Below, piece after piece: positions 16,794 to 35,772 of a DNA stretch of 37,311 bases. Source of the stretch: Fusobacterium sp. DD2 (GTDB lineage Bacteria; Fusobacteriota; Fusobacteriia; Fusobacteriales; Fusobacteriaceae). Each line of letters starts with the position of its first letter. The stretch's first letter is position 1. The notes beneath the pieces were generated by a model. The model saw only the letters and a program-made list of their open reading frames with translations, did not search any database and was not told the origin of the DNA. The stretch is taken from positions 1 through 37,311 of the forward strand of contig NZ_JADRHM010000019.1 of the NCBI RefSeq assembly GCF_018205345.1, written 5' to 3'. The translations under genes were made by a program, and so were the position numbers.

Positions 16794-16794
16794 A

Positions 16795-17171: not shown

Positions 17172-17195
17172 AAATGCCTTATATATTAAATTGTT

Positions 17196-17222: not shown

Positions 17223-17245
17223 CTTAACCTCCTAATTTTGAGTAT

Positions 17246-17281
17246 AAAAATAGACGATAGAGTTTTTAATTTCTATCGCCT
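17246..17281 (-). terminator. Terminator after the 91-residue hypothetical gene
   Basis: On the minus strand GGCGATAGA pairs with TCTATCGTC and is followed by TATTTTTA. It lies 16 bp after the stop of the 17297-17572 gene, so transcription from repA through virD4 probably ends largely here. Confidence 0.7.
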
Positions 17282-17296
17282 ATCAACACTTTATTT

Positions 17297-17572
17297 CTAG
17301 TCTTCTAAAATGGATACTTCAAGGTCTATCGCTTTAAATGTAACATTTATTCCTACTTCGTCCTCTACTGTTTTTTCAAATAGCTCAGCTATATCATATG
17401 GAGACATATCATATATATTTTCATACCATTCATTGCTTTCATCGTACATTGTCTCACATATTGCTTCAATATAATTTTTCTTATCCCTTGTGAGTTCTGT
17501 ATCACTTTCCATAATAAATTGCTCACCATTTATATTTAATATAATTAAAGATGATTTTCTATTTTCACACAT
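17297..17572 (-). CDS. Small acidic protein of the conjugative element, unknown function
   Basis: A 91-residue, strongly acidic protein (for example TMYDESNEWYENIYDMSPYD). It has a beta-like N-terminal part (SSLIILNINGEQFIMESD) and no cysteines suited to metal binding. I do not recognise the family. It follows virD4 by 18 bp with a GGAG ribosome site and is the last gene before a double terminator, so it probably ends the repA-virD4 transcription unit. Confidence 0.75.
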   Translation of the reverse strand: MCENRKSSLIILNINGEQFIMESDTELTRDKKNYIEAICETMYDESNEWYENIYDMSPYDIAELFEKTVEDEVGINVTFKAIDLEVSILED

Positions 17573-17590
17573 TTTGCTTTCTCCATAAAC

Positions 17591-19387: not shown

Positions 19388-20114
19388 CGTAGAAACCTTC
19401 ACTATCTAATAAAATTAGTAGGTAGTGTCTTCCTTTTGGCGTTATAAATGTTTGTATGCCTACAAGTGTACCTAGTGGATCAACCCATTCTTTTACTTCA
19501 AAATATCCCTTGTTCTTATCTGCATAAGGTAAGAGTTTCTTTTTCTTATCTCTATAAATTAATCCCTTATCCATTAAAAAGCTTATAAATTGATTTTGTG
19601 GTATTCCTAACTCTTTGGCAGTATTTCTAAAGTTTGTAAGTAGGTTATAATCTACTAATTTGTCATAATAGTCTGCCTTTGGTCTTAATTCTTCAATTTC
19701 TTCTTCTCTTTCGGAAATAATTCTATTGGCTACAAGAATTGCATCTGCAAGTAACTCTTCATTAGTTTTCTTTTCTTGCCCTACTATATATCCTCCATTT
19801 TTTCTAATGCTCGGTAAGACTTCTCTAGTTACCCAAGCTTTAAATATTTTTGCTTGTGGTAGTTTTGATGAAAGGATAAGTGAATATAGTCCTGACTCAT
19901 TAATAATTGAAATATTCTGTATTCCTCCAGGGGTGTTCCATTTCGTTACACCCTTATCTTCTTCATCTACATGGTCATAAACAGCTTTTCTTGGATTGAC
20001 ATATCCTAACATAGTTGCTACTTCATTTGCTATAAAGAAAAACTCACCGTCTTTTTCTATAACAGTGAGTTTCCCAAAATTCTTATTTTCAAATGTTTTT
20101 AAATTACTTATCAT
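19380..20114 (-). CDS. BRO-N domain antirepressor-like protein
   Basis: A 244-residue protein. Residues of about 1-115 form a BRO-N domain (VIEKDGEFFFIANEVATMLG, NESGLYSLILSSKLPQAKIF, REVLPSIRKNGGY). The C-terminal half (LLTNFRNTAKELGIPQNQFI, then LMDKGLIYRDKKKKLLPYAD) fits the DNA-binding antirepressor (KilAC/ANT) domain of phages. Phage antirepressors switch off repressors; in conjugative elements such proteins may regulate excision or transfer (inference). It overlaps pcfB by 4 bp and virD4 by 8 bp, so it is translationally coupled to the coupling-protein module. Confidence 0.88.
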   Translation of the reverse strand: MISNLKTFENKNFGKLTVIEKDGEFFFIANEVATMLGYVNPRKAVYDHVDEEDKGVTKWNTPGGIQNISIINESGLYSLILSSKLPQAKIFKAWVTREVLPSIRKNGGYIVGQEKKTNEELLADAILVANRIISEREEEIEELRPKADYYDKLVDYNLLTNFRNTAKELGIPQNQFISFLMDKGLIYRDKKKKLLPYADKNKGYFEVKEWVDPLGTLVGIQTFITPKGRHYLLILLDSEGFYDE

Positions 20115-20596
20115 AAGCTTTGCTCCTTATGTTTATTTTTAACTTTATCTTTACTAATGGTATCCTTAGCCATATCTTTAAACTTATTTATAGTCTTCGT
20201 TATTGAATCTTTCCTATCGGCCTTTCTTTCAGAAGCCTTAACTGCTTTTTTAAAGGCATGTTCCATTACCTTTATATCCTTAGATTGAAAAAACACAGAG
20301 TGGTTACCAGTTTCCTTATCTTTCATAACAGAAAACTTCACTCCGTGTTTATTTAAAATTTTCTTTAATTCTTTTAACTCAGGATCCTTTAGATTAATTT
20401 CTTCTAACTGTCCCTTTTTAACCATATCCTTTAGCTTTACTTCTTCTCCGTTATTTTTTATTACATTTTTCAAGCCTCCTTGTTCTTCTATTTGCTTGTG
20501 TACTTTCTTTAAGGCATCAAGAATTGCTTTACTTGTTGCTTTTGCAAGCCTTACTTCAAGATTAAGACTTGACCTTGATACTTCTTCATTAATCAT
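20111..20596 (-). CDS. pcfB: PcfB-family (DUF3801) conjugation accessory protein
   Basis: A 161-residue basic protein with the PcfB-family start (INEEVSRSSLNLEVRLAKAT) and the block LKKILNKHGVKFSVMKDKET followed by HSVFFQSKDIKVMEHAFKKA. PcfB of the enterococcal plasmid pCF10 associates with the VirD4-like coupling protein and helps deliver the relaxosome. The gene overlaps the DnaC-like gene by 8 bp and the antirepressor by 4 bp and has a GGAGGTG ribosome site. Its Lys-rich tail could contact DNA. Confidence 0.88.
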   Translation of the reverse strand: MINEEVSRSSLNLEVRLAKATSKAILDALKKVHKQIEEQGGLKNVIKNNGEEVKLKDMVKKGQLEEINLKDPELKELKKILNKHGVKFSVMKDKETGNHSVFFQSKDIKVMEHAFKKAVKASERKADRKDSITKTINKFKDMAKDTISKDKVKNKHKEQSL

Positions 20597-21416
20597 CTAT
20601 TCCACCTCCATATAAAAGTAACTCTTTGTATTTTCTTAACTTCTCTTGATGGATTTTTCTTCTAAAATCTTCTCCCGTAACTTTAACTGGTATTGTCATT
20701 TCAAGTATTCTTGAATATATTCTCTGATACTCAAGGTCAATGTTTGGATTTTGAATAATTTCCAATGATAAGTTTGTAGTAAAAATTGTCGGCCTACCCT
20801 TTAAGTATCTTGAGTTTATAATGTTATATACCTGTTCTCTTGCGTAAGATGTGTCCCTTTCAATTCCAAGGTCATCTAAGATTAATAAAGGAATATTAGA
20901 TAGGTTATTTATAATTTCGTTTGAATCTACCTTAAATGCGGATTTTTGTATTTGATTTATAACCTGAGATAAATTCATAATCTTAACTTTAACTTGTTCT
21001 CTTTCAATTAATTCATTTGCAATAGAACATGCAAGATAAGTCTTTCCACTGCCAACATCTCCATAAAATAAAAGTCCAACATTGTCTTCCTTCATTTGTT
21101 CAAAGCTCTTAGCATAATTGTAAGCAACCTTGTAAGCTTGACCTTTTTCATTTAAGAATCTCTCAAAAGTATATTGGTGTTGGTTTTGCGATGAAAAACA
21201 TTCTCTTTTTAGCGATGATATTCTCGTTAATATTTCTCTTTCTGCATTTTCCTTATCTCTTTTTATTTCACATTCACATTTAATTCTTGGAATAAACTTT
21301 GTAAATCCAAGGTCAACTAATTCTCCATCGACTCTTTTACCACATGATTTACAATAGATATGTCCATTTCTTTCAACATCATTTTCTCTTAATACAAAAT
21401 CTTTTAAGTTCTTCAT
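20589..21416 (-). CDS. DnaC/IstB-like ATPase (helicase loader of the element)
   Basis: A 275-residue AAA+ protein. Its N-terminus has a zinc-binding cluster (HIYCKSCGKRVDG ... IKCECEIKRD). The ATPase core has Walker A (LLFYGDVGSGKTYLACSIAN, about residue 120), Walker B (IPLLILDDLGIERD) and sensor-1 (TIFTTNLSLE). This matches DnaC/IstB-type helicase loaders that follow the initiator gene in Tn1549-type elements. It likely loads the replicative helicase at the element origin, in partnership with the RepA-like protein. It overlaps repA by 4 bp (ATGA). Confidence 0.92.
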   Translation of the reverse strand: MKNLKDFVLRENDVERNGHIYCKSCGKRVDGELVDLGFTKFIPRIKCECEIKRDKENAEREILTRISSLKRECFSSQNQHQYTFERFLNEKGQAYKVAYNYAKSFEQMKEDNVGLLFYGDVGSGKTYLACSIANELIEREQVKVKIMNLSQVINQIQKSAFKVDSNEIINNLSNIPLLILDDLGIERDTSYAREQVYNIINSRYLKGRPTIFTTNLSLEIIQNPNIDLEYQRIYSRILEMTIPVKVTGEDFRRKIHQEKLRKYKELLLYGGGIDD

Positions 21417-22186
21417 AAACTCTCTCCTATATCGTAATTCATTTTTCTTGTTGTATTATCATTAATGTTTTTTGCCTGATCATTAAGATACCAATTGATT
21501 ATCGTTGCCTTGTGATCTTGATAAACTCTGTTGTTTGCTTTCATATATGACGACAATCTATCAATGTATTCATTAATTCTACTTCCTAACTCATTTGTTA
21601 AGTCCTTGTATTCTTCATCAGTCAAAAATATATTTTTATATATTCCATAAGGCTTTTGCCCTTTACTAAAATCATTCTTTCTTAACTCATTATTACTAAT
21701 ATTGTTATAGTTACCTTCCGATTTTCGGAAATCTTGAAGTCTGTTATTCGGAGTTCTTGAATTCCGATTATCGGAAGTCTGGACTTCTGCTTTTCGGAAA
21801 TCTGCATTTCTGTTGTTTGGACTGTAAAAAACACTCATAAAATCTTTAACATAAATCCTATTTGGTTTTCCAAGTCCTTGTCTTTTCTTTTCTATTAATC
21901 CAATTCCTGATTTTGTATCAAGTTCATTCATAATTTTTAAGGCTTTATCATTTGCACAGTTGAATTGTTCTTTAATAGAATCCATTGTGTAATAAATAAA
22001 AACTTTTCCATCTTCATCTATCCAGCCATTTTTATATGAAAGACCCATTCGATTAAGCATATATGAATACAAAACTTTTGCTTCAATAGAAATGCTTTCA
22101 AAAATTTCATCTTCCATTAATACCATAGGTAACCTAATGAAGTTATACATCTCAGATTGCCTATTATAAAAATAATCAAAATTCAT
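21413..22186 (-). CDS. repA: Replication initiator protein A (RepA_N family)
   Basis: A 257-residue protein, with the start at MNFDYFYNRQ (22186) because AAGGGAGGT lies about 8 bp upstream; the frame is open further upstream without a ribosome site. The N-terminal winged-helix region (FIRLPMVLMEDEIFESISIE, AKVLYSYMLNRMGLSYKNGW, EQFNCANDKALKIMNELD) is the RepA_N domain. A low-complexity linker (about residues 130-175) is encoded by 23 bp iterons and separates it from the C-terminal part. RepA_N proteins start theta replication and commonly have their origin within their own gene. It begins the dnaC-pcfB-antirepressor-virD4 operon. Confidence 0.88.
   Translation of the reverse strand: MNFDYFYNRQSEMYNFIRLPMVLMEDEIFESISIEAKVLYSYMLNRMGLSYKNGWIDEDGKVFIYYTMDSIKEQFNCANDKALKIMNELDTKSGIGLIEKKRQGLGKPNRIYVKDFMSVFYSPNNRNADFRKAEVQTSDNRNSRTPNNRLQDFRKSEGNYNNISNNELRKNDFSKGQKPYGIYKNIFLTDEEYKDLTNELGSRINEYIDRLSSYMKANNRVYQDHKATIINWYLNDQAKNINDNTTRKMNYDIGESL
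21716..21815. repeat. In-gene iterons with 23 bp period (candidate replication origin)
   Basis: Four copies of a TTCGGAAATCT-like unit start at 21724, 21747, 21770 and 21793, exactly 23 bp apart. The first and third are each part of a palindrome TTCCGA-N3-TCGGAA (21716-21730 and 21762-21776, 46 bp apart). Because 23 is not a multiple of three, the repeat cannot be explained by a repeated peptide. RepA_N plasmids such as pAD1 and pSK41 carry iteron origins within the rep gene at an equivalent position. Confidence 0.75.
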
Positions 22187-22229
22187 TCCTACCTCCCTTC
22201 TTTGAAATAAAAACCTGCTAACAAAAGTC

Positions 22230-22263
22230 AAGCCTACTCCGAAATTAATTTCAGAGTAGGCTT
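22230..22263. terminator. Large symmetric hairpin between IS110 and repA
   Basis: AAGCCTACTC pairs with GAGTAGGCTT and the stem continues inward (GAAAT with ATTTC) with one mismatch. No clean T-run follows on either strand, so it may be a terminator with a poor tail, an mRNA stabiliser or a protein site. It lies 44 bp upstream of the repA start. Confidence 0.5.
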
Positions 22264-22341: not shown

Positions 22342-23565
22342 CTAAGCTACTTTTAACGCCTCCTTTTCTTGTTTTGATGCCATAACTTTTGCATAGTAGA
22401 TTCTTAAGAACTTATTTAAGCCTGCAAATTTACATACTTTTTTTGCTTTTCCATCTTTTTCTTTTTTTAGCATATATAGATATATTTCATTTTCTGGATT
22501 TTTAACACTCATCATACATTTCATAGATTGGTATCCTATTTTTCTAAGTATTGCATTACCTCTTTTGGTTATTTTTCTCTGATCTGCTTTGAAATTCCCC
22601 GATTCATATGGTGGTGAGTCTATTCCTACAAAGGATATTAGGCATTTTTTATTTTTAAATTTTGATAAGTCTCCAAATTCTGCTGTTATTTGTACTGCTA
22701 ATTTGTCTGATATTCCTGAGAATTTTTTGGCTTCTTGATATTCTTCTAGAGGCTCGGCAATTTCTATCATTTGTGATAAAATATTATATAGAATTTGATT
22801 TATATGTTTGATCAATTCTATCCCTTCTTGTAGGTTCATCTTTATGTATGAGCTATTGGAAGGTTGAGTTGAGATACTTTCCTCTGCAAGCTTGTAAATG
22901 GATTTAGCTTTATCAGCATTAGGATGGTATCTCTTTTCTTTTGCCCAGTTCTTAAAGTCTTCTATGAATTTTTCTTCTGTTTTTTCTAAAACTAGGTCTT
23001 TGTGCCACCATGTTTCTAAGAAATCTAATAGTTTGTCTTTTGAGAAGTCTTTAGATCCATGAGATATTAATTTTTTTATTCCCGGAAATGTTTGACTGAT
23101 TGTTTGGTCTATGAAGTTCATTTGATTGATTCTTAGGTCCATGTAATGCTGATAAGATCTGTTTAATTCTTTTAGAGTTCTAAAATTTTCTGTATCTACT
23201 TTGTGTTCTTGTAATTCTTTCCAATACATCAACCCATATTCTGCTATTTGTGTGGCATCTATATTATCATTTTTTGCTTTTCTGAAGTTTAACACTCGGC
23301 AGAACTGTTTCATTTTTAATGGATTAATTACTGCTACAAAGTATCCTTGTTTTTTTAATTCATAAAGAATTGGCAAATGATATTTTCCTGTTGCTTCCAT
23401 GACTATTTTGATTTCTTGATTTAAATCTTTTAGTTTATTTAAGAATCCTTCTACTTCTGGTTTGTTAAGATTTACATCAAAGGGCTTCCAAATAATTTTG
23501 CTACCTTTTTCTAAGGCACAGGCTGTAAATTTTTCTTTTGCTATATCTATTCCTATAGATATCAT
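22342..23565 (-). CDS. IS110-family transposase
   Basis: A 407-residue recombinase. The N-terminal RuvC-like DEDD domain shows the first Asp in ISIGIDIAKEKFTA, the Glu in IVMEATGKYH and the Asp pair in AKNDNIDATQIAEYG. The C-terminal Transposase_20 domain (FSGISDKLAVQITAEFGDLS, SFVGIDSPPYESGNF, ITKRGNAILRKIGYQ) has a Ser in the ESGNF segment as expected for the catalytic serine. IS110 enzymes use a bridge (seek) RNA from the element to pair donor and target DNA. A GAAGG ribosome site precedes the ATG. The frame is intact, so it may be active. Confidence 0.95.
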   Translation of the reverse strand: MISIGIDIAKEKFTACALEKGSKIIWKPFDVNLNKPEVEGFLNKLKDLNQEIKIVMEATGKYHLPILYELKKQGYFVAVINPLKMKQFCRVLNFRKAKNDNIDATQIAEYGLMYWKELQEHKVDTENFRTLKELNRSYQHYMDLRINQMNFIDQTISQTFPGIKKLISHGSKDFSKDKLLDFLETWWHKDLVLEKTEEKFIEDFKNWAKEKRYHPNADKAKSIYKLAEESISTQPSNSSYIKMNLQEGIELIKHINQILYNILSQMIEIAEPLEEYQEAKKFSGISDKLAVQITAEFGDLSKFKNKKCLISFVGIDSPPYESGNFKADQRKITKRGNAILRKIGYQSMKCMMSVKNPENEIYLYMLKKEKDGKAKKVCKFAGLNKFLRIYYAKVMASKQEKEALKVA

Positions 23566-24182: not shown

Positions 24183-24896
24183 CTAAGCAGCACACCAACT
24201 ATTTATTTTTTGAGTTTTAAACTTTGGTAGAAGTCTTGAACTCCTTATATTTACATAACTATTTGCCTCTATCACTATTATGACACGAAACCCACATGCT
24301 GGGTCAAACACTCTACCTTTTGTAGGTTCCAAGCATGCTACTATAGTTTTAACTATTGAATCAGGTGTATAGAATTGTCCACCATTTTTCCCCTCTGAAT
24401 TAGCAAATTTTGCTAAGAAAAACTCATATACTTGTCCAAGAACATCTTGCCCTTTTCCATCTTTTGTCTGTAAATTTATATTTCCAATTATATCTATTAA
24501 TTCTCCTAGTTTTCCTTTATCAAGCATTTGGTTAGAATATACTTTATAAAGCACATCTTTTAATGATTCATTTGCTTTTTCTATCTCATCCATAGCCTCA
24601 TCTATAATCAACCCAATTTCTGGAGTTTTAGCTTTTTTTACAATTTCACTCCATCTTGCTTTTTTAGGTACCCAGAATATATTTTCAGCTGTATATTCAT
24701 CTATTTCTTCTTCAAATCCTGCCCCTTCTTCGACTAGTTCTTTATATTTTTTCTCAAAACTATCACTTATATATTTTAAGAAAACAAGCCCTAATACTAC
24801 ATATTTATACTCTGCAGGATCCATATTATTTCTAAGTTTATCACAAGCTTTCCAAAGAGTTTCTTTGAAATTTTCTTTTTCTTCTATTTTCGCCAT
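24183..24896 (-). pseudogene. hsdM: Type I restriction-modification methyltransferase HsdM, truncated at motif I
   Basis: From the ATG at 24896 (GGTGAGGG just upstream) the protein reads as a normal HsdM N-terminus: FKETLWKACDKLRNNMDPAE, YKYVVLGLVFLKYISDSFEK, VLGQVYEFFLAKFANSEGKN and GGQFYTPDSIVKTIVACLEP. It stops matching exactly inside the SAM-binding motif I: DPACG is followed by FRVIIVIEAN rather than SGGM. The rest of the methyltransferase domain, including NPPF, is absent. About 35 unrelated codons follow to a stop at 24183. An HsdM without motif I cannot methylate. The break is best explained by insertion of the conjugative element at 24290; the 3' part should lie at the element's other end. 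Confidence 0.9.
24280..24295. other. Probable att junction of the conjugative element within hsdM
   Basis: hsdM coding homology ends after GACCCAGCATGTGGG (24305 to 24291 on the minus strand). The following TTTCGTGTCATAA belongs to non-hsdM sequence. Everything to the left is mobile-element DNA and everything to the right is consistent with host DNA. Insertion of Tn1549-type elements into hsdM has been reported for elements with serine recombinases. The recombinase itself is outside the window. Confidence 0.65.
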
Positions 24897-24929
24897 TTCC
24901 CTCACCTTTTTATATGATTTCTTTATAAC

Positions 24930-24935
24930 ATTATA
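24930..24935 (-). promoter_or_regulatory. Extended -10 box of the hsdM promoter
   Basis: TGCTATAAT on the minus strand is an extended -10 element 34 bp upstream of the hsdM ATG. No good -35 is seen at 17 bp, as is usual for extended -10 promoters. Its site between the helicase terminator and hsdM suggests hsdM is transcribed separately. Confidence 0.6.
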
Positions 24936-24983
24936 GCATATAAATACTACTTTTTGCCTTAAATAGACTTCTATTTTGAAAAA

Positions 24984-25008
24984 CAAAAAAGACCCTCGAA
25001 AGGGTCTT
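24984..25008 (-). terminator. Terminator of helicase-HEPN gene 2
   Basis: On the minus strand AAGACCCT pairs perfectly with AGGGTCTT around a TTCG loop, followed by TTTTTTG. It begins 5 bp after the stop codon. Confidence 0.9.
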
Positions 25009-25012
25009 AATA

Positions 25013-27424
25013 TTACTGAATAGTTATTTCAGGTTCTTTGCAACATTTATAACTGTCTATAATGAAGATATCTTTACCATTGGACTGCTGATATTTTCCA
25101 TTCATCTCATATACTCCGTCCTTTACAAGTCTTGAGCATGCTCCAAACTCCTCATTATCAATCAAATACAGGTAAAGTTCCTTACCATGTATCTTAGATT
25201 TACATCCTTTGGTTATAAGGCTACCAATTTTACTTATAGGATTCTTATTATCATCTCTTTCTTTAACTGCTAAAATCTTATCATATAGTTTCACCAGCTT
25301 TTTATCTTTAAAAATATAGTCCTGTATTACCATCAAATCTTTCTTATTATTTATATCCAAAGTGCTATGAATAGCCAAATTTCTTATTTTAATGAACCCA
25401 AGTTTTATAATCTCTTTGGCAAACTGCTTATAGTCCTTATTGTCCTCAAGATTATGTACCATCTCTCCAAGAGTCATTACAGTATCTTTATATATCTCTT
25501 TTAACACCAGCTCCAAGGCCTTGGCATACTTACCATAGGCAGTTTCTATATCCATAATCTGTTCGGAATAGTAAAGTCCAAGAGCAATATTTTTCAAAAC
25601 TTCATCTGGAAGTTCACCCATCTCTTCACAAACCTTTTTATCATAATCTTCAATTGTAAGTTTGACATTTATATTGCTATTTTGTAGGTCCTTTTCCTTC
25701 TGTTCCAATTTTTCCTGATACTCTTTTTCAAGTTCAGTTTTCTTCTCAAGATTTTCCCCTACTCCAGTATATCTTGGAAGTTTGTTACTTTCAATTATAG
25801 CCTTTTGTATTTTTATATTACTGTCAATTATCTCTTCTATATTCAGATTATCTCCATATTCAAGTTTTGATAGATAATTTTCATCTATACTTTGAATGAA
25901 CTTATTTGCCTCTCCAACAGATAGTATAAACAGCAGTTCCATTGCTCTTGTCATTTGTACATAGTAGTATTTCGCAATCTCTTCGTCAGGTTTGTTCTCA
26001 TTATAGCTGTTGTTTCCCACCATAAATATAATTTTAGATTCCAAACCTTTTACATTATATGGATTATAGATTCTTATTTTTCCTTTATTTGCATCTCTAG
26101 CAGAAACTCCATCTTTATTATATGAATATGAGTCTTTTGAAGAGATATATACTGAGTCTATCCCATTATTACACATTTCAGTTTTATAACTTTTCTCCTC
26201 TTCAACATTCTGAGATATAATAATTATATCGTCCATAGTATAGTTGTATTTTTTCAATAAAACTTTTACTATTTTTATTATAAATTTACTCTCTGCTTCT
26301 ATAGTAGGAGATTCTAATAACATAGGTTTAATTCCCTCATCACTCTGTCCAAAGATAGGATTTACCACTAATTCATTGGCGTCATCTTTATCAGAGTAAT
26401 TAGATAAAAGACTATAGGCACACTGATGAATCTGTCTTGTACTTCTATAGCTAAATCCCAAAGTCTTAACACTTTTTCTTGCATTAATCCCAATTGATTT
26501 AAATGAAGTTATACTATTGAAATAGGAACTTTTATAAATAGATTGAGATATATCATATAGAAAAGTCAGATAATGTATATCATCAAATATCTCCATAATT
26601 TTCTGTAAAGTTCTGATTTTTAGACGACACAAATCTTGACTTTCATCTACTATTATAGCTTCTATATTGGAAAAAATCTGAAAAAGATTAACTCGCTTTT
26701 TATTTTGTAAATCGCTATCATCAGTTACTGTTTCACTTGACACTTGGTCCATTTCTATATCTTTAGCATAATCTTTATCTTTATAATCTTTAAGATATAC
26801 AGTTAAAAACCAGTTGTATGCATCATATATATCAATTTTATTATTATTCTTTAGCATATGCCTATATTTTATGAGGACATCATATATGTTCTTCCTTACA
26901 TCCTTATTTAATCTTCCTTTTCTATGGTTTCTTACTACATCCACATATTCCTCTTTACTAAAACCATTGTACATAATATAGCGAATCTCATCTATAAAAA
27001 AATCCTCGTCCTGATTTAATTCAACTGCCATATTTTTCATAAAGGATTTATAAGGTTCTTCTTTAGAAAAATATTCTTTGTTAAAAGTGCTTATTTTATA
27101 TTCAGAATGCTCTTGTAGAAATATACCTTTAACTAAACTATAAAACAATTTATCATATGTTTTAAACTCTATACTTTCTGAGAATTTTTTATCACAGTAC
27201 TCTCTATTTTTATCTTTTAGTTCATTTATAATGGAGTTATTATAGCTTAAAAAAAGCACCTTCTTATGTTTATTAAAAAGAGAGCCTGCTTGATCCTCTA
27301 AAATCATTTCAGCTCTGGCAAGTCCAACTAGTGTTTTCCCACTTCCTGCTGTCCCTTTTACTATTAAAATCCTTTCACTAGAGCCCACTATTGCAGCCTG
27401 TTCTTTTGATAGCTGTATCTTCAT
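25013..27424 (-). CDS. SF1 (UvrD-like) helicase with C-terminal HEPN-like domain, paralog 2
   Basis: An 803-residue protein, with the start at MKIQLSKEQ (27424) because AAGAGGTG lies 6 bp upstream and the paralog starts at the same place; the open frame 20 codons further up crosses the promoter. Motifs: Q motif LSKEQ, Walker A LIVKGTAGSGKT (residues 24-31), Walker B AIIVDESQDLCR and motif VI YYVQMTRAMELLFI. After a linker coiled coil, residues of about 620-700 form a helical domain with KIRNLAIH at 681-686, the R-N-x3-H pattern of HEPN ribonucleases. A small beta-rich domain with GKELYLYLIDNEEFGACSRL ends the protein. Roughly 60% of residues match paralog 1 by eye. The nucleic-acid substrate and the ribonuclease activity are inferred only. 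Confidence 0.85.
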   Translation of the reverse strand: MKIQLSKEQAAIVGSSERILIVKGTAGSGKTLVGLARAEMILEDQAGSLFNKHKKVLFLSYNNSIINELKDKNREYCDKKFSESIEFKTYDKLFYSLVKGIFLQEHSEYKISTFNKEYFSKEEPYKSFMKNMAVELNQDEDFFIDEIRYIMYNGFSKEEYVDVVRNHRKGRLNKDVRKNIYDVLIKYRHMLKNNNKIDIYDAYNWFLTVYLKDYKDKDYAKDIEMDQVSSETVTDDSDLQNKKRVNLFQIFSNIEAIIVDESQDLCRLKIRTLQKIMEIFDDIHYLTFLYDISQSIYKSSYFNSITSFKSIGINARKSVKTLGFSYRSTRQIHQCAYSLLSNYSDKDDANELVVNPIFGQSDEGIKPMLLESPTIEAESKFIIKIVKVLLKKYNYTMDDIIIISQNVEEEKSYKTEMCNNGIDSVYISSKDSYSYNKDGVSARDANKGKIRIYNPYNVKGLESKIIFMVGNNSYNENKPDEEIAKYYYVQMTRAMELLFILSVGEANKFIQSIDENYLSKLEYGDNLNIEEIIDSNIKIQKAIIESNKLPRYTGVGENLEKKTELEKEYQEKLEQKEKDLQNSNINVKLTIEDYDKKVCEEMGELPDEVLKNIALGLYYSEQIMDIETAYGKYAKALELVLKEIYKDTVMTLGEMVHNLEDNKDYKQFAKEIIKLGFIKIRNLAIHSTLDINNKKDLMVIQDYIFKDKKLVKLYDKILAVKERDDNKNPISKIGSLITKGCKSKIHGKELYLYLIDNEEFGACSRLVKDGVYEMNGKYQQSNGKDIFIIDSYKCCKEPEITIQ

Positions 27425-27463
27425 TTGACACCTCTTTATAAATGTGACCTGTTTTTCAATTTT

Positions 27464-27492
27464 ATTATCCTCTATCAAGACCATATAATCAA
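27464..27492 (-). promoter_or_regulatory. Promoter of helicase-HEPN gene 2
   Basis: On the minus strand -35 TTGATT (27487-27492) and -10 GATAAT (27464-27469) are separated by 17 bp. The same boxes at the same spacing precede the paralog at 30553-30581, and both are followed by a GTGAC element and AAGAGGTG. Confidence 0.8.
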
Positions 27493-27573
27493 TACTTTTT
27501 TACTAAAAATTAAGTATTTAATTTTTAATTTCTCATTTTTAGCCATCTAGATATTTAAAATTTTTTCAAAAAA

Positions 27574-27598
27574 TAAAAAAGACCCCTGAAAAGGTCTT
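27574..27598 (-). terminator. Terminator overlapping the last CRISPR repeat
   Basis: On the minus strand AAGACC pairs with GGTCTT (partly extended by CC/GG), followed by TTTTT. The first arm uses the last bases of the repeat at 27595-27623, so it would end an array transcript made on the minus strand. Confidence 0.7.
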
Positions 27599-27887
27599 AA
27601 AACATCCAATGTTACTATTCAATTTACTGAAGAAGTTACTGAAGAGACAGAAGCTCAGGCATCTTAAAACATCCCATGTTACTATTCAATTCTTGTTAAC
27701 AAGTAAAGATTACAAGTTGCCATATTATCTTAAAATATCCAATGTTACTATTCAATCTACAAAATGGTACTGATAGAGCTTTTGGATGCGTTGTCTTAAA
27801 ACATCCAATGTTACTATTCAATGAAAATGACATTCAAGAAAAAAGTGTTCATGAAAGCGTCTTAAAACATCCCATGTTACTATCAAT
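27595..27887 (-). CRISPR. CRISPR array: five 29 bp repeats, four spacers, no cas genes in the window
   Basis: Repeats (plus-strand coordinates) lie at 27595-27623, 27662-27690, 27728-27756, 27794-27822 and 27860-27887. In plus orientation each begins TCTTAAAACATCC and ends GTTACTATTCAAT; the middle varies (CCAATG or CCCATG), the third has one A-to-T-type change and the last lacks one base. Spacers are 38, 37, 37 and 37 bp and differ from each other. In minus orientation the repeat starts ATTGAATAGTAACAT, resembling subtype I-B repeats of clostridia and fusobacteria. A terminator after the 27595 repeat supports minus-strand transcription, with the leader on the 27888 side. No cas gene occurs within the window. 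Confidence 0.92.
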
Positions 27888-28122
27888 GGTCAAATAACGA
27901 CTTGTTATTATTTTATTTTACGTAACTCCCTTTACATCTAAAGTATAACATATTTTTTCCAAGCAATAACAGATTTTGCCTTTATTTCCATAAGTATCAA
28001 TTTTAGATTAATTCACAAATTATCTATCAGTTCACTTGGAAAATTTACTAATTAAATGTACTACACCCTCCATCTTACTTATCCAAGACTTTAGGTGCAG
28101 TACACAAAATTATTTTAATTTA
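27888..28122. other. AT-rich intergenic region: probable CRISPR leader and helicase 1 trailer
   Basis: No gene is seen. The part next to the array is AT-rich, as in CRISPR leaders. An imperfect inverted repeat (GTACTACACC near 28058-28067 with GGTGCAGTAC near 28092-28101, loop of about 24 nt) follows the stop of helicase 1 and may be a weak terminator; no T-run follows it. Confidence 0.45.
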
Positions 28123-30513
28123 CTATTCTTCTACTGGCTCTTTACACTCCTTAAATTTATCTATCACAAAGATATCCATACCATTAGAAACCTGATACTT
28201 TCCTTCCAGTTCATATCTTCCACTCTTAATAAGTCTTTTGCAGGCTCCAAAATCTTCATTATCAAGAAGATAAAGATATAAATCTTTTCCACGTACCTTT
28301 GCCTGGCAGCCTTTAGTGACAACATAAGCCACTCTGGTAATAACTCCATTATTCTCTTCTCTCTCTTTAACTTTTAGCATCTTATCAAAAAGTTTTACCA
28401 GCTTGTTATCTTTAAAAATATAGTCATATATTTTCTCTATCTCTTTTTTATTCTCTGGACTCAAGTTTTCATGTACAGCTGCATTTCTTATTCTTACAAA
28501 TCCATATTCTATTATCTCTTTAGCAAAATCTCTATAATCTTTATTAAGCTCAAGGAAATTTACCATCTGTCCCAAAGTGAGCTCTCTATCTTTATAGATT
28601 CTTTTTAAAATAAGCTCCAGCCCTTTGGCAAACTTTCCATAGGCAGTCTCTATATCATTTACACCTTCATAATAATAAAGACCCAATCCAAGGTTTTTTA
28701 TCACATCATCTGGCAGAATAGACATATCTGTCTGAACCTTATTAACATATTTTTCAGCTTCTGCATTACCAGTAAAGAGATCCTTATTAATAGTCTGCTC
28801 CCTCAATTCCATTTTTTCCTGGTAAGCTTTATCTGCAGCTGAATTCTTCTCAATATTCTCTGCCACTCCAGCATATCTTGATATCTTATTGCTTTCAATC
28901 ATCTCTTTTTGCATCTCAATATCTCTATCTATTATCTCATCTATATCAAGATTAGGATTGTAATCAACCTTTGTAATATATTTTTCATCTATACTCTGAA
29001 TATATTTGTCAGGCTCTCCCTCTGTCATAATAAATAACAGTTCCATAGCTCTTGTCATCTGTACATAGTAAAATTTTGCATTCTCCTCATCTGTACGTCT
29101 ATGGCTGTGCTTATTAGTTCCCACTATAAATATTACTTTTGACTCAAGACCTTTTACATTATACGGATTGTATATTCTTATTTTACCCTTATTCTCTTCC
29201 CTTGCAGATTTCCTGTTTTCATTATACTCTCTTGATATTTCTGAAGAGATATATGCAGTTTGCAGTCCACTTCCTTCCAGTATCTTTTCAAAACGCTCTT
29301 CCTCTTCTGTATTTTGGCAGATTATAATTATATCATCTGGAGTATATCTATATTTTTCCATCAGAGTATTTATCATTCTTGCAAGAAGTCTTCCCTCATT
29401 TTTTACAGTTGGACATTCTACCAAAACAGGTTTTACCCCTTCATCACTCTGTCCAAATATCGGGTTGACAACCAATTCATTTTCATCATTTTCTTCTGAG
29501 TACTTTGATAAAAGGCTGTATGCACATTGATGTATCTGTCTTGTGCTTCTATAACTATAGCTTAAAGTTTTTACACTCTTTATTGCACTTATTCCCATAG
29601 ATTTAAAAGAGGTTATGCTACTAAAATATGAGCTTCCATAGATTGACTGTGAAATATCATAAAGAAATGTTATATAGTTGATATCCTCAAATATTTCCAT
29701 TATCTTAAGGAGAGTCTTTATCTTTATTCTACAAAGATCCTGACTTTCATCTACAATTATTGCCTTAACATCTGAAAATATTTCATAGATATTAGGTATT
29801 TCATCTATAGTCTCTTTTCCCTCTTTTTTCAGATAAGCATTTTCAATATCAGTCTCATATCTTTTTATTCTATACTCCTTTAAATATACATCTAAAAACC
29901 AGATATATGCATCATATATATCAATTTTTTTATTCTCTCTTACAATATCTCTATACTTTTCAAGAACAGAATAAATCTTTTCCCTAATCTCTTTTGTAAT
30001 TTCCTTTTCCTTATTTTTTCTAACTGCTGTAGCATACTCATCTTTACTAAAGCCATTATACATAATATAGCGTAACTCATCTAATAAAAGCTTCTGTTCA
30101 AGACCTAAATCTTTAGCACTTTTCTCCAAATAATCTGCATATTCTCCATCAGGAGCAAAGTATTCCCTGTTAAAAGTACTTATTGTAAAATCAGGATGAT
30201 ATCCTTTAAAAATATCACAAATCAAATCATAAAAAAATCTGTCATAAGTTTCAAAAGCAACCTTATTTACAAATCTATCTTTACAATATTCTCTATTTTT
30301 ATCTCTAATCTCATTAATAACAGAGTTGTTATAGCTAAAAAACAATACTCTTTTATCCTCATTAAAAAGAGAACGTTCCTGATCTTCCAAAATTCTTTCT
30401 GCTCTGGCCAGTCCAACTAAAGTCTTTCCACTTCCAGCAGTTCCTTTTACTATTAAGGTTCTCTTTCCCCACCTTGCTATTGTATCCTGTTCCTTTGTTA
30501 ATTCTATCTTCAT
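28123..30513 (-). CDS. SF1 (UvrD-like) helicase with C-terminal HEPN-like domain, paralog 1
   Basis: A 796-residue protein. It has the Q motif LTKEQ, Walker A LIVKGTAGSGKT (24-31), Walker B AIIVDESQDLCR, an SF1 motif with LSYSYRSTRQIHQ, and motif VI YYVQMTRAMELLFI. The C-terminal helical domain carries VRIRNAAVH (R676, H681), the HEPN R-x4-H signature, then a conserved beta-rich tail (KGCQAKVRGKDLYLYLLDNE). The architecture is identical to the gene at 25013-27424, so the two arose by duplication including the promoter. AAGAGGTG precedes its ATG. It follows jetD by 141 bp with its own promoter. Location in a defence island suggests nucleic-acid sensing coupled to RNA cleavage (inference); a plain repair helicase is the alternative. 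Confidence 0.85.
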   Translation of the reverse strand: MKIELTKEQDTIARWGKRTLIVKGTAGSGKTLVGLARAERILEDQERSLFNEDKRVLFFSYNNSVINEIRDKNREYCKDRFVNKVAFETYDRFFYDLICDIFKGYHPDFTISTFNREYFAPDGEYADYLEKSAKDLGLEQKLLLDELRYIMYNGFSKDEYATAVRKNKEKEITKEIREKIYSVLEKYRDIVRENKKIDIYDAYIWFLDVYLKEYRIKRYETDIENAYLKKEGKETIDEIPNIYEIFSDVKAIIVDESQDLCRIKIKTLLKIMEIFEDINYITFLYDISQSIYGSSYFSSITSFKSMGISAIKSVKTLSYSYRSTRQIHQCAYSLLSKYSEENDENELVVNPIFGQSDEGVKPVLVECPTVKNEGRLLARMINTLMEKYRYTPDDIIIICQNTEEEERFEKILEGSGLQTAYISSEISREYNENRKSAREENKGKIRIYNPYNVKGLESKVIFIVGTNKHSHRRTDEENAKFYYVQMTRAMELLFIMTEGEPDKYIQSIDEKYITKVDYNPNLDIDEIIDRDIEMQKEMIESNKISRYAGVAENIEKNSAADKAYQEKMELREQTINKDLFTGNAEAEKYVNKVQTDMSILPDDVIKNLGLGLYYYEGVNDIETAYGKFAKGLELILKRIYKDRELTLGQMVNFLELNKDYRDFAKEIIEYGFVRIRNAAVHENLSPENKKEIEKIYDYIFKDNKLVKLFDKMLKVKEREENNGVITRVAYVVTKGCQAKVRGKDLYLYLLDNEDFGACKRLIKSGRYELEGKYQVSNGMDIFVIDKFKECKEPVEE

Positions 30514-30654: not shown

Positions 30655-31824
30655 TTATATTATCTCTTTTAAATACTCTTTTAAAAAACTATACCTTATT
30701 CTTTCCTGTTCCAATCTTACATTTTTTCCATAAACATTTTTTTTAAGTTTATACAACACACTAGCTTCTTCTGGAGTCAAATATACTCCATCATTTTTAG
30801 ATTGTTCTTTCTCTATAACCCACATATCTTTATGCTTTAATAGTATTTCCTCTGTCATAAGGAAAGATTTAACATTCTTAATATCCTTTCTCACATTTGA
30901 AAGAATACTGAACCCATGAGTATCTATATCTCCCCAATAATATACATCTCTCTCATTGAGCCAGGAAGCTTTTTGTAATAACCCTGCTTTATATCCTGAA
31001 CCAAATAATATCACTGCATTTTCAACTTTAGGAAAACAGAGAAAATTTATCTCATTTTCAACTATAAATATTTTAGAAAAAGAATTTTTCCATCGTGAAA
31101 ATTCTTCAATAGGAACACTTATATCTGAAAAGTTTAAAATATATTTTTCTGGATCCAATATTCTAAATCTTACAAGGTTCGGCTTACGTTTGAACCCAAA
31201 CATTTGAGAAAAGTCCTCACTGTATTCTATCCTTTCATCAATTAAAATAACAGGCAAAAGCTCTTTTAATAATGGAAAATTATTCTCTATAAATTTAGTA
31301 TCTACACCCTCAATATCTAACTCTCTTATATAAAAATTTCTATTTTTATTATTTTTAAACCACAAAAGTACAGCTATTATATTATCTATATTTTCTATAT
31401 TCAATATTTTAAAAGGCTTATCATATATATAATCTGAAAGTTCAGGAAAATTTGCTATCAACTTCTTACTGTTCAGTTTAAATTTTTCAACATCTTTTTT
31501 CTTCTTTAATAACAAAATAGCATCTTTATTAGATATTATAGATATATAATGGGGAAATTTATATACTTTTTTACCTATATCATGTAATTCTCTATATTTT
31601 ATTTCATATCCATATCCTAAATTCATTTTACTATTGTTTTCAATTTCCTCTACCCACAAGCTTATTTCTTTTAAATCTTTATATATATCATTTTTAGTTA
31701 AATTAGAAACCCGCATTTCCAAATTAAAATTTTCATCCCTAAATATTTTTCTTAAAATCTCCTTATTTCTCCATTTTATACTTAACTTATGGATAATATC
31801 CTTGTAATACTTCAATTTATTCAT
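30655..31824 (-). CDS. jetD: Wadjet protein JetD (Toprim nuclease subunit)
   Basis: A 389-residue protein with the DUF3322/DUF2220 layout. The C-terminal Toprim-like part has RDVYYWGDIDTHGFSILSNV near residue 295, whose acidic residues bind the metal, and the family-typical end NVRLEQERI. In Wadjet, JetD is the topoisomerase VI-like subunit that cleaves circular DNA after the JetABC loop extruder has captured it. The gene overlaps jetC by 8 bp (ATGAATAA), so the subunits are translationally coupled. Length is normal for the family. Confidence 0.93.
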   Translation of the reverse strand: MNKLKYYKDIIHKLSIKWRNKEILRKIFRDENFNLEMRVSNLTKNDIYKDLKEISLWVEEIENNSKMNLGYGYEIKYRELHDIGKKVYKFPHYISIISNKDAILLLKKKKDVEKFKLNSKKLIANFPELSDYIYDKPFKILNIENIDNIIAVLLWFKNNKNRNFYIRELDIEGVDTKFIENNFPLLKELLPVILIDERIEYSEDFSQMFGFKRKPNLVRFRILDPEKYILNFSDISVPIEEFSRWKNSFSKIFIVENEINFLCFPKVENAVILFGSGYKAGLLQKASWLNERDVYYWGDIDTHGFSILSNVRKDIKNVKSFLMTEEILLKHKDMWVIEKEQSKNDGVYLTPEEASVLYKLKKNVYGKNVRLEQERIRYSFLKEYLKEII

Positions 31825-34800
31825 TTATATCCTCTCTTCTCAAAGTGATTTTATCTAAGAACTTTCCTATTTTTATATTCTGTACCCTAGATTCTCTGCT
31901 CATCTCATCCTGCTCAACATTACATACACTTTTAACATATTTTCCTATAACCTCTAGGTTATTCCCTGGAGTTGCAAGTATAAATTGAAACTTCAGATTT
32001 TTGAAAAGTTCTAGTCCAAATCTTGCTGCATCATTGGAACTTTTTAAAAAGGCCTCATCTATAATGACCACTCTAAATCCTATCTCCTGACTATTATCCA
32101 TGAAATAGTTATAAGAAAGACCTGCCCCTAAAATAGTGTAAGCAAGTTTTTCCTTTTGACCTCCAGATTTACCTGATGAATCATCATAATGTTCACGTTG
32201 TTTGCCTGTTTCCTGATCTTTCTCTGTTGCAGAAAAAGCAAACCAGTTTCTTACATCAGTAACTCTGCCAACCCAACGCCCTTCAGGCGTATTTGTACCC
32301 TGCTGTTTAAATTTTTCTATTAAAGCTCTTGCAGCCTTAAAACGTGTCTCAAGTACTGTCTCATCGTCAGTTTGACCACCAATGCAAGAATTTATCTCTG
32401 CTCTAAATTCATTTATTTCACTGTTATTGGTATGATTGACATTAATTGTAATATATGTCCCTACATTAAACTCTATTGTCGATAGTATTCTATTTATTTT
32501 TTCTATTTTAGTACAAATCTTTTTCTCACTCTCTGAGAAAGTACTATTCATAAATCCAAAACGTAGTCCAACTTTATCATGTAGCCCATCTTTAAATTCT
32601 TTTTCTAATTTGTATAATTTGTCTTTTTCCAATTCTTCTAGCATTACGTTACATTCTTCTAAAGAATTGACATTTGCATCAAAACTTATAATTTCAAATT
32701 TATTTACAAATTTTCCAATGGAAGTAATTAATTTATCTCTTAAATTTATTTCATTTTCATTTTTTTTATCTAATTGCGCTTCTAAAAATCTTCTAATATT
32801 GTCACTTATCTCATCTACATTAGCTAAAGATAATTGGGTGTTTATCTTCTCCTTATATATTTTTAATACCAAAGCTAACCCAGTCTCATAACATTCAATA
32901 ATTTCTTTTATCTTAATCTTTTCTTTATTTTTTCTTAATTGACTATCAAAATTCTCTCTTTTAGTAGTAGTTTCTCTTATATCTGCAACTAAATTATTAA
33001 TTTCCGTCTCAGTTAATGCCAACTCATCTCTTTTTTGGGCTACAACATTTTTTAGATACCTTAATTTATCATTTTTCTCTAATTCTGCTATTCTGCCCAC
33101 TAATTCTGCTATTCTTTCCTCTACATTTTTTAAGTTTAACTCCTCAAAGTCTTTATACTGAAGTAAAATAGAAGTAGCTAACTGCTGGATCTCTAAAGCT
33201 TTTTTGTTCTTTTCAATCTCTACATATTTATCCTGTATTAGACTTATGACATTTCTAATATCATCTAAATTCTGTGTTAGCATATTTATCTTTTTTTCAT
33301 TGGTAAAACCTAAACAGTAATAGCTTCTATCATCAATTTTTCTGCTATCATCTTTTTCATGCTTAGTATTAGACCTTATTTGACCTTCAATAGTCAATCC
33401 TCTTGAACATTTATTAAGTATTTCTATTGTTGCACAACACTGATAGTTATATCTTCTAGTCAAAAAATTCTCTAACCACTTTTTAAAATTTATGTCATCT
33501 TTTAACGTTATTTTTTTTAACACTGAGTTATCATCTACATATCGCATTTCTTTTAAATTTGTAATATTGTTATCCACGAAATGATAGACTAATCTATTTT
33601 TCAAATGATGATCATTTATATATTTAGATATTTCATTATACAGATGCTTAGGAATGAGCAACGATTTTGCAAATCCACGGAGCAGTCTTTCAATAGCTCC
33701 TTCCCACTGCAAATCCGTTACCTCTATTAACTCTCCTGCAAATGGAATTTCTTTACTCTGCAGCTTAAATTCGTCACATAATTTTTGTTGAATATTTACT
33801 AAATATTTAGGAATATTGCTAGTTCTTGATTTTAATGATTCCAGTTCCTCACTAATCAACTGTGATTTACGCTGTTCATCATTCTTTTCTATTGTTATTT
33901 CATCCAATTTTTGCTGATAATTACCTATTTCCACTGGCAGAGTTTCATAAAGTTTTCTCAGTTCATTTTGATTTTTATCAAACTCTTCTTTTGTATATGG
34001 AACCTTTAGCTTTAACAACTGGCTTTGTTTTGTATAATCTGCTATCTTTCTTTTTACAGTTTCTTTTTTTTCATTTTCTCTTTTTAACTCTTTTTGGCAA
34101 TTTGCAATGGCATTTCCACCCTGTTCTCCAATATTTATAAGCAGTTCATCTATTTCTTTTCCAAATTTCTTCTTAAGCTCTACTTTAACAGATTTTTTTT
34201 CTTCCAATTCACTCTGTTTAGCATTTAAATTTGCTATCTCAGTTTCTAATAATTCTACTTTGTGCTCACAAGTCCATGGAAGTAAAACTTCCTGTGCTAT
34301 TTTTATAGCATTTATTTCATCAAGAAGATCATTTCTTTTCTTTCCAATCGTTCTTATCGGTCTTAACAATTCCACCTGTTTTTTCGCTTCCAATGCTTTT
34401 TCATATGAAACATTCAAGTCTTCAAAATTATCTATAAGTTTGTTTATTTCATCATCAATAGTTCTGTTGCGTTCTAAAATATACTCACGGACAAACTGTG
34501 TAAGAGAATCTACTTTTTTCATATGTATGGCCTGTTGAAAAATATTTAAGGCCTGTTCATCCAATCCACCTAAAAGCTTTGAAAATTTTGAATAATATCC
34601 TGCATATGTATCCATCATCTTTATACTATTATCTTTAAAATATTTTCGTAATGCAGATATCCCACCTTTAAATTCTTCAAAATCCTTTTTAATGCTGAGC
34701 TCTTTTTCCGCTATTATATATTTTTTCTCCAATCCATTACTCTCATCACCTTTATAATAAAGTAGCATTGCTAAAGTAACTGTTTTATTCTGCTTTTCAT

Positions 34801-35176
34801 CCTTAAAAACAGCCAAAATAACAGAATAATCTTGAAAATCTCTTAATTTCTCAGGAATAGTTCTTCCTTCTTTAGTTACAGTACGTCCATATGTTCCTAA
34901 TACATAGGTATGAATTGTCCTTTCTCTAGGCCCTGACCCAGCAGCCTGATTATAATTAAATTTTCTTCCATCTACTAGTAAAGTTTGAATTGCATCTATA
35001 ACAGAAGATTTACCTAACCCAGACGCACCATATATCAAAGTATTGTCACCATTGAATTCAAAAGGCCAGATAAATTTGTTAAATGTTCCCCAATTTAAAA
35101 GCTCTACTTTATATAATCTTATACCTGCTTTTATATCTGAAGGTGGTAAATTAAATAAACTATGCTGCGTCCCCAT
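31817..35176 (-). CDS. jetC: Wadjet protein JetC (SMC/MukB-like ATPase)
   Basis: An 1119-residue SMC-type ATPase. Walker A is TLIYGASGLGKSSVIDAIQT (about residue 50), the ABC signature is SSGKSGGQKEKLAYTILGAG (about residue 1004), and Walker B is FRVVIIDEAFLKSS (D1040, E1041). Between them lie two long coiled-coil regions (about 270-460 and 660-890) around a hinge-like domain. It is the loop-extruding motor of Wadjet and belongs to the MukB/MksB relatives (COG4913-like). It starts 3 bp after jetB with GAGGAGG upstream. Confidence 0.95.
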   Translation of the reverse strand: MGTQHSLFNLPPSDIKAGIRLYKVELLNWGTFNKFIWPFEFNGDNTLIYGASGLGKSSVIDAIQTLLVDGRKFNYNQAAGSGPRERTIHTYVLGTYGRTVTKEGRTIPEKLRDFQDYSVILAVFKDEKQNKTVTLAMLLYYKGDESNGLEKKYIIAEKELSIKKDFEEFKGGISALRKYFKDNSIKMMDTYAGYYSKFSKLLGGLDEQALNIFQQAIHMKKVDSLTQFVREYILERNRTIDDEINKLIDNFEDLNVSYEKALEAKKQVELLRPIRTIGKKRNDLLDEINAIKIAQEVLLPWTCEHKVELLETEIANLNAKQSELEEKKSVKVELKKKFGKEIDELLINIGEQGGNAIANCQKELKRENEKKETVKRKIADYTKQSQLLKLKVPYTKEEFDKNQNELRKLYETLPVEIGNYQQKLDEITIEKNDEQRKSQLISEELESLKSRTSNIPKYLVNIQQKLCDEFKLQSKEIPFAGELIEVTDLQWEGAIERLLRGFAKSLLIPKHLYNEISKYINDHHLKNRLVYHFVDNNITNLKEMRYVDDNSVLKKITLKDDINFKKWLENFLTRRYNYQCCATIEILNKCSRGLTIEGQIRSNTKHEKDDSRKIDDRSYYCLGFTNEKKINMLTQNLDDIRNVISLIQDKYVEIEKNKKALEIQQLATSILLQYKDFEELNLKNVEERIAELVGRIAELEKNDKLRYLKNVVAQKRDELALTETEINNLVADIRETTTKRENFDSQLRKNKEKIKIKEIIECYETGLALVLKIYKEKINTQLSLANVDEISDNIRRFLEAQLDKKNENEINLRDKLITSIGKFVNKFEIISFDANVNSLEECNVMLEELEKDKLYKLEKEFKDGLHDKVGLRFGFMNSTFSESEKKICTKIEKINRILSTIEFNVGTYITINVNHTNNSEINEFRAEINSCIGGQTDDETVLETRFKAARALIEKFKQQGTNTPEGRWVGRVTDVRNWFAFSATEKDQETGKQREHYDDSSGKSGGQKEKLAYTILGAGLSYNYFMDNSQEIGFRVVIIDEAFLKSSNDAARFGLELFKNLKFQFILATPGNNLEVIGKYVKSVCNVEQDEMSRESRVQNIKIGKFLDKITLRREDINE

Positions 35177-35179: not shown

Positions 35180-35764
35180 TTATTCCTCCTCTTTTTCATC
35201 CTCATTAAAAAACTCTCTATAAGAGTCTAATTTTGTATCTATCCCCTCAAGACAGTGTGCATCAACAAATCTTTCTACAATTCTCAATATTTCATATTGA
35301 TCCTGATAACCCTTTATTTGCCTTATAAATCCCATGTCCGCTATTTTTTTTATTGCACTATTTACACGCTTTATTTCTCTTATCTCATCTGTTTTTTTCC
35401 CTAAAAATAAAGCAATATATTCATATATCTTATCTTTGGATATAACTTCCCGCCCTTTTATAGAAATTGTATTTGGTAAATTTTTTTTTAATAATACAAG
35501 TATTAAGCTTGAATATCTATCCAACTGATTCCTTCTAACTAGCCTTGGCACTCTTGACTCCTTGCTATCATCTAAAATTGTTACATAACAATAGCCATTT
35601 TCACTGTCCAGTACAAACTTTAAGTTTAAATACTTTACATATTCCTCAATTCTAGGTTTATGCCTTATAATGTAATCCCATACTTCTAAATCATCACTTC
35701 TATTGATAATTCCTTTTAATAAGTTTGTTACACTTTTTGAAAATAATATCTCCTGTTCTTCCAT
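35180..35764 (-). CDS. jetB: Wadjet protein JetB (MukE-like, DUF4194)
   Basis: A 194-residue protein. The start is MEEQEILFSK (35764) because AGGAGGG lies 4 bp upstream; an in-frame ATG 7 codons earlier overlaps jetA. The winged-helix pattern (VPRLVRRNQLDRYSSLILVL, ISKDKIYEYIALFLGKKTDE, VNSAIKKIADMGFIRQIKG) matches DUF4194 JetB proteins, the MukE equivalents that bridge the kleisin JetA and the ATPase JetC. It lies 8 bp after jetA. Confidence 0.92.
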   Translation of the reverse strand: MEEQEILFSKSVTNLLKGIINRSDDLEVWDYIIRHKPRIEEYVKYLNLKFVLDSENGYCYVTILDDSKESRVPRLVRRNQLDRYSSLILVLLKKNLPNTISIKGREVISKDKIYEYIALFLGKKTDEIREIKRVNSAIKKIADMGFIRQIKGYQDQYEILRIVERFVDAHCLEGIDTKLDSYREFFNEDEKEEE

Positions 35765-35772
35765 TTTCCCTC

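Follow-up and report, generated by a model that had tools for sequence, protein, structure and literature searches.

Two tandem genes in the 37,311-nt window (the whole stretch of DNA that was analysed) encode paralogous proteins in which a complete SF1 helicase is followed by a predicted coiled coil, a domain whose assignment to the HEPN ribonucleases is supported by a structural model, by where the motif lies and by residues conserved in two phyla, and an OB barrel. The genes are part of the defence cargo of a conjugative element. We favour, with a probability of roughly 0.55, the interpretation that the proteins are helicase-gated HEPN RNases acting by abortive infection.

Two intact paralogs with a complete SF1 helicase

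The gene pair and its parts were located as follows.

25013..27484, (-): copy A, same architecture as copy B, 823 aa
25244..25618, (-): HEPN domain of copy A, by alignment to copy B
25367..25384, (-): RNLAIH motif of copy A (R701...H706; residues 701-706)
25865..27424, (-): helicase region of copy A, Pfam UvrD-helicase 4e-12
27594..27887, no strand: CRISPR array between copies A and B
28123..30513, (-): copy B, SF1 helicase - coiled coil - HEPN - OB protein, 796 aa
28126..28347, (-): C-terminal OB barrel of copy B, residues 723-796, by VIA matches to PriB/SSB/RPA OB folds
28348..28722, (-): HEPN domain of copy B, residues 598-722, by VIA matches and conservation
28471..28488, (-): RNAAVH of copy B (R676...H681), predicted RNase active site, by motif and conservation
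28723..28968, (-): linker of copy B with long helix, predicted coiled coil, residues 516-597
28969..30513, (-): helicase region of copy B, residues 1-515, by Pfam UvrD-helicase (7.9e-13), motifs and VIA matches to UvrD/Rep/PcrA

Both copies are intact in the ORF list of the window; 20 additional N-terminal residues of copy A hinge on the choice of start. The two proteins are paralogs that align end to end with 59% identity, which is 63% in the HEPN domain, 60% in the helicase and lowest, 44%, in the linker. Nucleotide differences between them amount to 27, 20 and 49% at codon positions 1, 2 and 3, respectively, a pattern that indicates purifying selection and thus that both copies were kept as proteins. 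A third paralog, 44% identical to copy B, is encoded elsewhere in this genome, on a contig of 3.2 kb (L003:664-2997).

The sequences GTAGSGKT, DESQD, SQSIY, YRST, NVKGLE and MTRAME (positions 24, 255, 288, 321, 452 and 486 of copy B) occur once each in either copy, and in the third paralog the helicase motifs are intact and the corresponding residues largely invariant. With Walker A, DExQD, Q, R, VKG and TRA motifs present, both copies are complete SF1 (UvrD/Rep/PcrA-like) helicases, and the two long SF1-helicase proteins that the initial annotation had placed at 25013-30513 are confirmed. Further Pfam matches of this part were SLFN-g3_helicase (Schlafen group-3) and AAA_19, while a sequence search of solved structures returned HelD, PcrA and UvrD. 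The best PADLOC match was C3a187 'NERD+UvrD' (1.1e-24), and the next were partial matches to GajB models in the 1e-12 range. In a full-length AlphaFold2 (AF2) model of copy B (796 aa, pLDDT 68.4), VIA matched residues 1-520 to UvrD, Rep and PcrA with Z of 17-20 and a large rmsd, the latter probably due to poor modelling of the relative placement of the two lobes; residues ~7-320 matched GajB with an rmsd of ~4.

The linker contains an AF2-predicted helix (residues 549-596 of copy B, low pLDDT). The C-terminal barrel is five-stranded in a separate model of the C-terminal part (residues 178-255 of that model, see below), where it matched PriB, SSB and RPA OB folds (best Z 8.4; VIA rmsd 2.5 over 69 residues). 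Most coiled-coil relatives have tails that align with it, and in relatives from a second phylum it is missing or shortened. The coiled-coil linker and the OB domain had been missed by the initial annotation, as had the third paralog and the position among the cargo of a conjugative element that also occurs in Bacillota.

Evidence for a HEPN domain

RNLAIH and RNAAVH are the sole R-x4-H sequences in copy A and copy B, respectively. Since chance is expected to produce ~0.25-0.28 occurrences in a protein of such size, R-x4-H by itself is weak and was rejected as a HEPN test; the case for HEPN is based on conservation and fold.

To obtain the fold, the three paralogs and relatives from Fusobacteriaceae genomes were aligned and the C-terminal part was folded with AlphaFold2, which yielded a model of moderate confidence (pLDDT 74.4, pTM 0.58). 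In VIA-align, residues 57-181 of this model matched the HEPN toxin 7ae6 (Z 9.7, rmsd 4.0, 119 residues), and other HEPN matches were 7ae8 (Z 9.6), Csm6' 8pe3 (8.5) and 1wwp (7.9), the last of which is a HEPN structure according to PMC3710099. The helical entries that head the VIA list are all HEPN proteins, and the remaining ones shown correspond to the C-terminal barrel. Because a Z of 9.7 lies below the tool's caution level for helical bundles (~13), under which a match is inconclusive, the assignment leans on convergence of several observations. At its end, the alignment with 7ae8 pairs model residue 177 with residue 144, i.e. with an offset of 33, which, if the alignment is ungapped, would superimpose R135 of the model with R102, which is mutated in the 7ae8 structure. 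HEPN domains are defined in PMC3710099 by an Rx4-6H motif and by an upstream acidic residue in the form Ex3[KR]. The model has RNxxxH at a helix end and in the loop before the next helix, and E92-x3-K96 on an earlier helix, as described there; within its moderate confidence, it predicts a HEPN fold of four helices, the third of which ends in the motif.

In an alignment of nine sequences, nine columns out of 231 were invariant, including R, N and H of RNxxxH and E of Ex3[KR]. The probability that four named positions would fall among these columns by chance is ~1e-6, a figure that serves as a guide only, the sequences being related. When 12 sequences from two phyla were compared, five columns alone remained invariant: three (D, K and E) lie in the first part, and the other two are the R and H of the motif. 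The residue that follows R is N in 11 sequences and K in one, and Ex3[KR] can be read from the alignment in 11 of the 12 (it is missing in L087). Thus, R, H and the acidic residue are strictly kept, while elsewhere identity falls to 16-27%.

No curated HEPN profile matched the C-terminus of the copies significantly; HEPN_Swt1 (0.08) and Hypoth_Ymh (0.097) gave non-significant matches, to one member each. The NCBIfam 'HP0729 family' profile recognised four of the 12 HEPN sequences when these were trimmed (best 8.5e-8), and was not seen with the full-length proteins. For the HEPN part, a sequence search of solved structures returned no match, and PHROGs gave none for that of the window's copies. 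A Foldseek search of the PDB ranked OB folds on top, with no E <0.001, and structural matches in BFVD were weak. We conclude that the identification of R-N-x-A-x-H as a HEPN motif is supported by the modelled structural matches (Z 7.9-9.7), by the position of the motif and by the invariance of R and H in 12 of 12 sequences. Neither a missing HEPN fold nor unconserved R and H, two outcomes by which the initial annotation would have been refuted, was observed.

The gene pair is defence cargo on a conjugative element

The remainder of the window contains the following features.

385..22231, (-): conjugative-element backbone
5446-9727: sigma-70-region-4/ABC-transporter/TetR insert within the backbone
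22342..23565, (-): IS110 transposase, adjoining truncated hsdM, NCBIfam transpos_IS110 2.2e-52
24183..24986, (-): hsdM fragment, N-terminal part, HsdM_N 7.5e-27
30655..31824, (-): jetD (Wadjet type I), PADLOC JetD1 1.4e-106
31817..35176, (-): jetC (Wadjet type I), PADLOC JetC1 2.9e-294
35180..35785, (-): jetB (Wadjet type I), PADLOC JetB1 1.5e-48
35773..37269, (-): jetA (Wadjet type I), PADLOC JetA1 8.9e-109

The backbone carries genes for a topoisomerase, CD1107-like, NlpC/P60, TraG/VirB4, PrgI, TrbL, VirD4, BRO and DUF3801 proteins, an IstB-like ATPase and RepA_N. Positions 1-24309 of the window, which comprise it, are ~95% identical to Bacillota plasmids (Anaerococcus, Aerococcus): 52% of 25 kb aligned with Anaerococcus prevotii pAPRE01 at 95.9% identity and 69% with an Aerococcus tenax plasmid at 95.3%. 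The helicase-HEPN and Wadjet cargo had no match in either plasmid. In pAPRE01, the zone adjoining repA holds an N-6 methylase gene and AbiE-type genes, and the locus therefore looks like a cargo site; in related Bacillota elements, the zone near repA contains mixed cargo (AbiE, DUF262 and methylase genes). We conclude that the helicase-HEPN locus is defence cargo on a conjugative element. The presence of a Bacillota-like element in a Fusobacteriaceae assembly implies either a recent cross-phylum transfer or a contaminating contig.

The neighbours named in the initial annotation were found in part. The Wadjet type I operon is complete (jetA-D, 30655-37269) and the CRISPR array is real, but the type I restriction genes are represented by a truncated hsdM only, which comprises the first ~245 residues and covers positions 3-68 of the 311 of the N6_Mtase profile. 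An Rfam SpF39 sRNA match is located just upstream of the IS110 transposase gene (23802-23882, -), and a hairpin-like repeat similar to it (83%) is present at 17248-17282; the match may represent a terminator carried by the element or an RNA linked to IS110. Four 23-nt tandem repeats at 21715-21821, whose period is no multiple of 3, lie inside the RepA_N ORF (21413-22231, -) and are no CRISPR.

The array between the two copies consists of five repeats of ~30 nt, the last of them degenerate, spaced by 66-67 nt, with four spacers of 36-37 nt. No cas genes were found in the window, and Cas1 homologs are encoded on two other contigs of the genome. Elsewhere in this genome the repeat does not occur, and in other Fusobacteriota genomes it was found once, with three mismatches. 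The array had no match in phage and plasmid records; an IMG/VR search for exact matches to two spacers found none. It may be passive cargo, being tied to the helicase-HEPN proteins by position alone.

Distribution of the HEPN module

Among ~860 genomes searched, the helicase-fused form was present in this one genome only. Close relatives of the fused protein were not found in plasmids, where only the helicase part was matched, in phages and IMG/VR, or in GTDB contigs, for which degenerate patterns performed poorly and returned one distant helicase match. In Fusobacteriaceae helicase relatives (L005-L012 and L023:6004-8436), the place of HEPN is taken by a C-terminal IEVK nuclease-like segment and an S24/LexA-type peptidase, which gives a helicase-nuclease-peptidase arrangement in a single chain; the L023 gene, from Ilyobacter polytropus pILYOP01, lies among housekeeping genes.

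The HEPN module is mobile and was found on other front ends as well. In genome G043, a coiled-coil-HEPN gene comes after a type III effector set (Csm3/Cas7-like proteins, Cas6 and a CARF protein), and the ORF table of G057, rather than a profile scan, gives the same gene order. A coiled-coil-HEPN gene in G004 faces Cas6, CARF and Csx20 genes, and in G026 a coiled-coil HEPN-OB protein (L066:8800-9807, +) is encoded downstream of PbeA and PbeC of a Pbe defence locus. A search of 398 genomes of a second phylum (probably Bacillota, judging from a RepA_N replicon in the centre genome of that set) revealed four further HEPN domains. One is C-terminal to TPR-like repeats, in a metabolic gene neighbourhood (G690, L090:7522-10110, +); another is joined via a linker to a response-regulator receiver domain and is possibly a phosphorylation-controlled RNase (G686, L087:949-1935, +); the third is C-terminal to a region without assignment, beside a shorter ORF (G780), and the last is a 115-aa fragment (G799). 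The occurrence of the same module on different front ends is the pattern expected of an effector domain.

Two genomes that belong to one genus carry, within type III CRISPR loci, a coiled-coil HEPN-OB gene that directly adjoins a CARF gene (L062:9167-9961, + and L068:89-409, -). It had no PADLOC match, and its product is a candidate for an unannotated type III ancillary effector.

By the terms of the initial annotation, homologs located mainly outside defence contexts would have spoken against its reading; on this point the outcome is mixed. The window's two copies and four other loci (two with type III CRISPR/CARF genes, one with Cas6/CARF/Csx20 and one with Pbe) are beside known defence genes, while near four more (G017, G021, G690 and G686) no defence gene was seen; the third paralog, G799 and G780 are left out of this tally. 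In this small sample, the HEPN module is thus often, but not exclusively, next to defence genes.

Proposed mechanism and alternative explanations

The proposed mechanism combines in one chain an SF1 (UvrD-like) helicase or translocase as a putative sensor, a coiled-coil linker, a HEPN effector and an OB nucleic-acid binder. The roles of sensor and effector are assigned by reference to described examples (PMC3710099; CoCoNuTs, PMC11090510; Schlafen 11, PMC11615386). SLFN11, according to PMC11615386, acts as a receptor for ssDNA and restricts viruses, its endoribonuclease activity being directed against translation. The helicase and the OB barrel would engage exposed ssDNA, DNA ends or a transcription intermediate that arise when a phage or plasmid invades. 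The placement of the coiled coil between sensor and effector points to gating, either by conformation or by dimerisation, in which ATP turnover would lift inhibition and pair two HEPN domains. The paired RNxxxH motifs would then cleave cellular RNA (tRNA or mRNA), which would stop translation and abort the infection. Since the two copies have diverged, heterodimers are allowed; the tandem proteins may form homo- or heterodimers, or respond to separate triggers.

If this is true, the proteins provide a compact one-gene link from the sensing of damaged or invading DNA to RNA cutting, the HEPN module lies outside current profiles and is a candidate for an overlooked effector beside type III CRISPR and Pbe, and such cargo travels on a conjugative element common to different phyla. 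We also consider, as a tentative reading, that HEPN(-OB) is an effector module, unnamed so far, carried on interchangeable sensors (an SF1 helicase; a coiled coil, in genes next to type III CRISPR or Pbe; TPR; a response regulator), and that the window's tandem helicase version is a one-gene, helicase-gated RNase immune system and, in its logic, a bacterial counterpart of Schlafen 11.

Other explanations were weighed against the same data. The proteins could be DNA-repair or transcription-recycling helicases (HelD/UvrD-like) whose HEPN-OB tail merely binds nucleic acid, as befits an OB barrel; the NCBIfam HelD model does match copy A (2.8e-18), but partially and with 65 bits versus a 419-bit cut-off. 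The invariance of R, H and the acidic residue in a domain that otherwise diverges, the sporadic distribution and the location among defence cargo speak against this explanation, which we regard as rather unlikely. Carriage on a conjugative element and a HEPN toxin (7ae6) as the best structural match would fit a selfish stability module, in which the helicase restrains the HEPN toxin, loss of the element or complex frees it (addiction), and phage defence is secondary. However, these are single-chain proteins, no partner antitoxin gene was seen, and related Bacillota elements carry mixed cargo, not helicase-HEPN genes, at this place; we regard such a module as unlikely.

A DNA-restricting helicase that, like GajB of Gabija, needs another nuclease and uses HEPN for dimerisation or docking is suggested by the GajB models among the PADLOC matches and by Gabija chains among the structural ones. 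Given that no GajA/OLD gene was found in the window or beside the third copy and that the HEPN motif is intact, this explanation appears improbable. The least credible is a CRISPR-guided effector that uses the array lying between the paralogs: two genomes have type III CRISPR genes next to HEPN homologs, but no array was found near the homologs retrieved, the repeat is restricted to one place in the genome, the Cas1 homologs are on other contigs, and the architecture contains no known crRNA-binding part. The helicase-gated RNase remains our preferred interpretation, against which stand the HEPN Z below the caution level, the absence of a significant HEPN profile match, the moderate confidence of the model, the restriction of the fused form to one genome among those searched, and the HEPN relatives in non-defence neighbourhoods.

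Comparison with known systems

The initial annotation had suggested an undescribed abortive-infection system, which is plausible. Fusions of HEPN with SF1 helicases have, as a class, been on record since 2013 (Anantharaman et al., PMC3710099), in conflict and restriction-modification contexts; for the arrangement of copies A and B, with C-terminal HEPN-OB, no report was found in PADLOC or in the literature searched, which covered few subscription papers and preprints, so that a prior name is possible. The fusions of Anantharaman et al. (PMC3710099) likewise combine a HEPN RNase and an SF-I helicase in one chain, as DUF4145-UvrD or as giant N-terminal-HEPN proteins with transglutaminase, Vsr and wHTH. 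In contrast, the HEPN domain of copies A and B is C-terminal with an OB barrel behind it, and none of the Pfam HEPN families gave it a significant match. CoCoNuT CnuH/CnuE (PMC11090510) also couple an SF1 helicase to a HEPN effector and contain coiled coils and OB folds, but their helicase is UPF1-like, with HEPN on separate proteins and McrBC partners, whereas that of copies A and B is UvrD-like and fused to HEPN; no McrB/McrC genes, which mark CoCoNuT types II and III, were found among the window ORFs scanned.

Gabija GajB is a close defence helicase by profile and is among the structural matches; copies A and B add the HEPN-OB tail, and no OLD-type/GajA gene, by which Gabija is recognised, was found among the window ORFs scanned. 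In PADLOC C3a187 'NERD+UvrD', a NERD nuclease occupies the place that HEPN-OB has in copies A and B. Human Schlafen 11 and SLFN14 likewise join a helicase part to an endoribonuclease; the analogy is one of logic only, the RNase part being N-terminal and of another kind. Csm6 and Csx1 are recognised by a CARF domain fused to HEPN; CARF had no match in copy A or B. They are likewise HEPN effectors, of type III systems; Csm6' is a structural match of the C-terminal model, and HEPN homologs of copies A and B adjoin type III loci.
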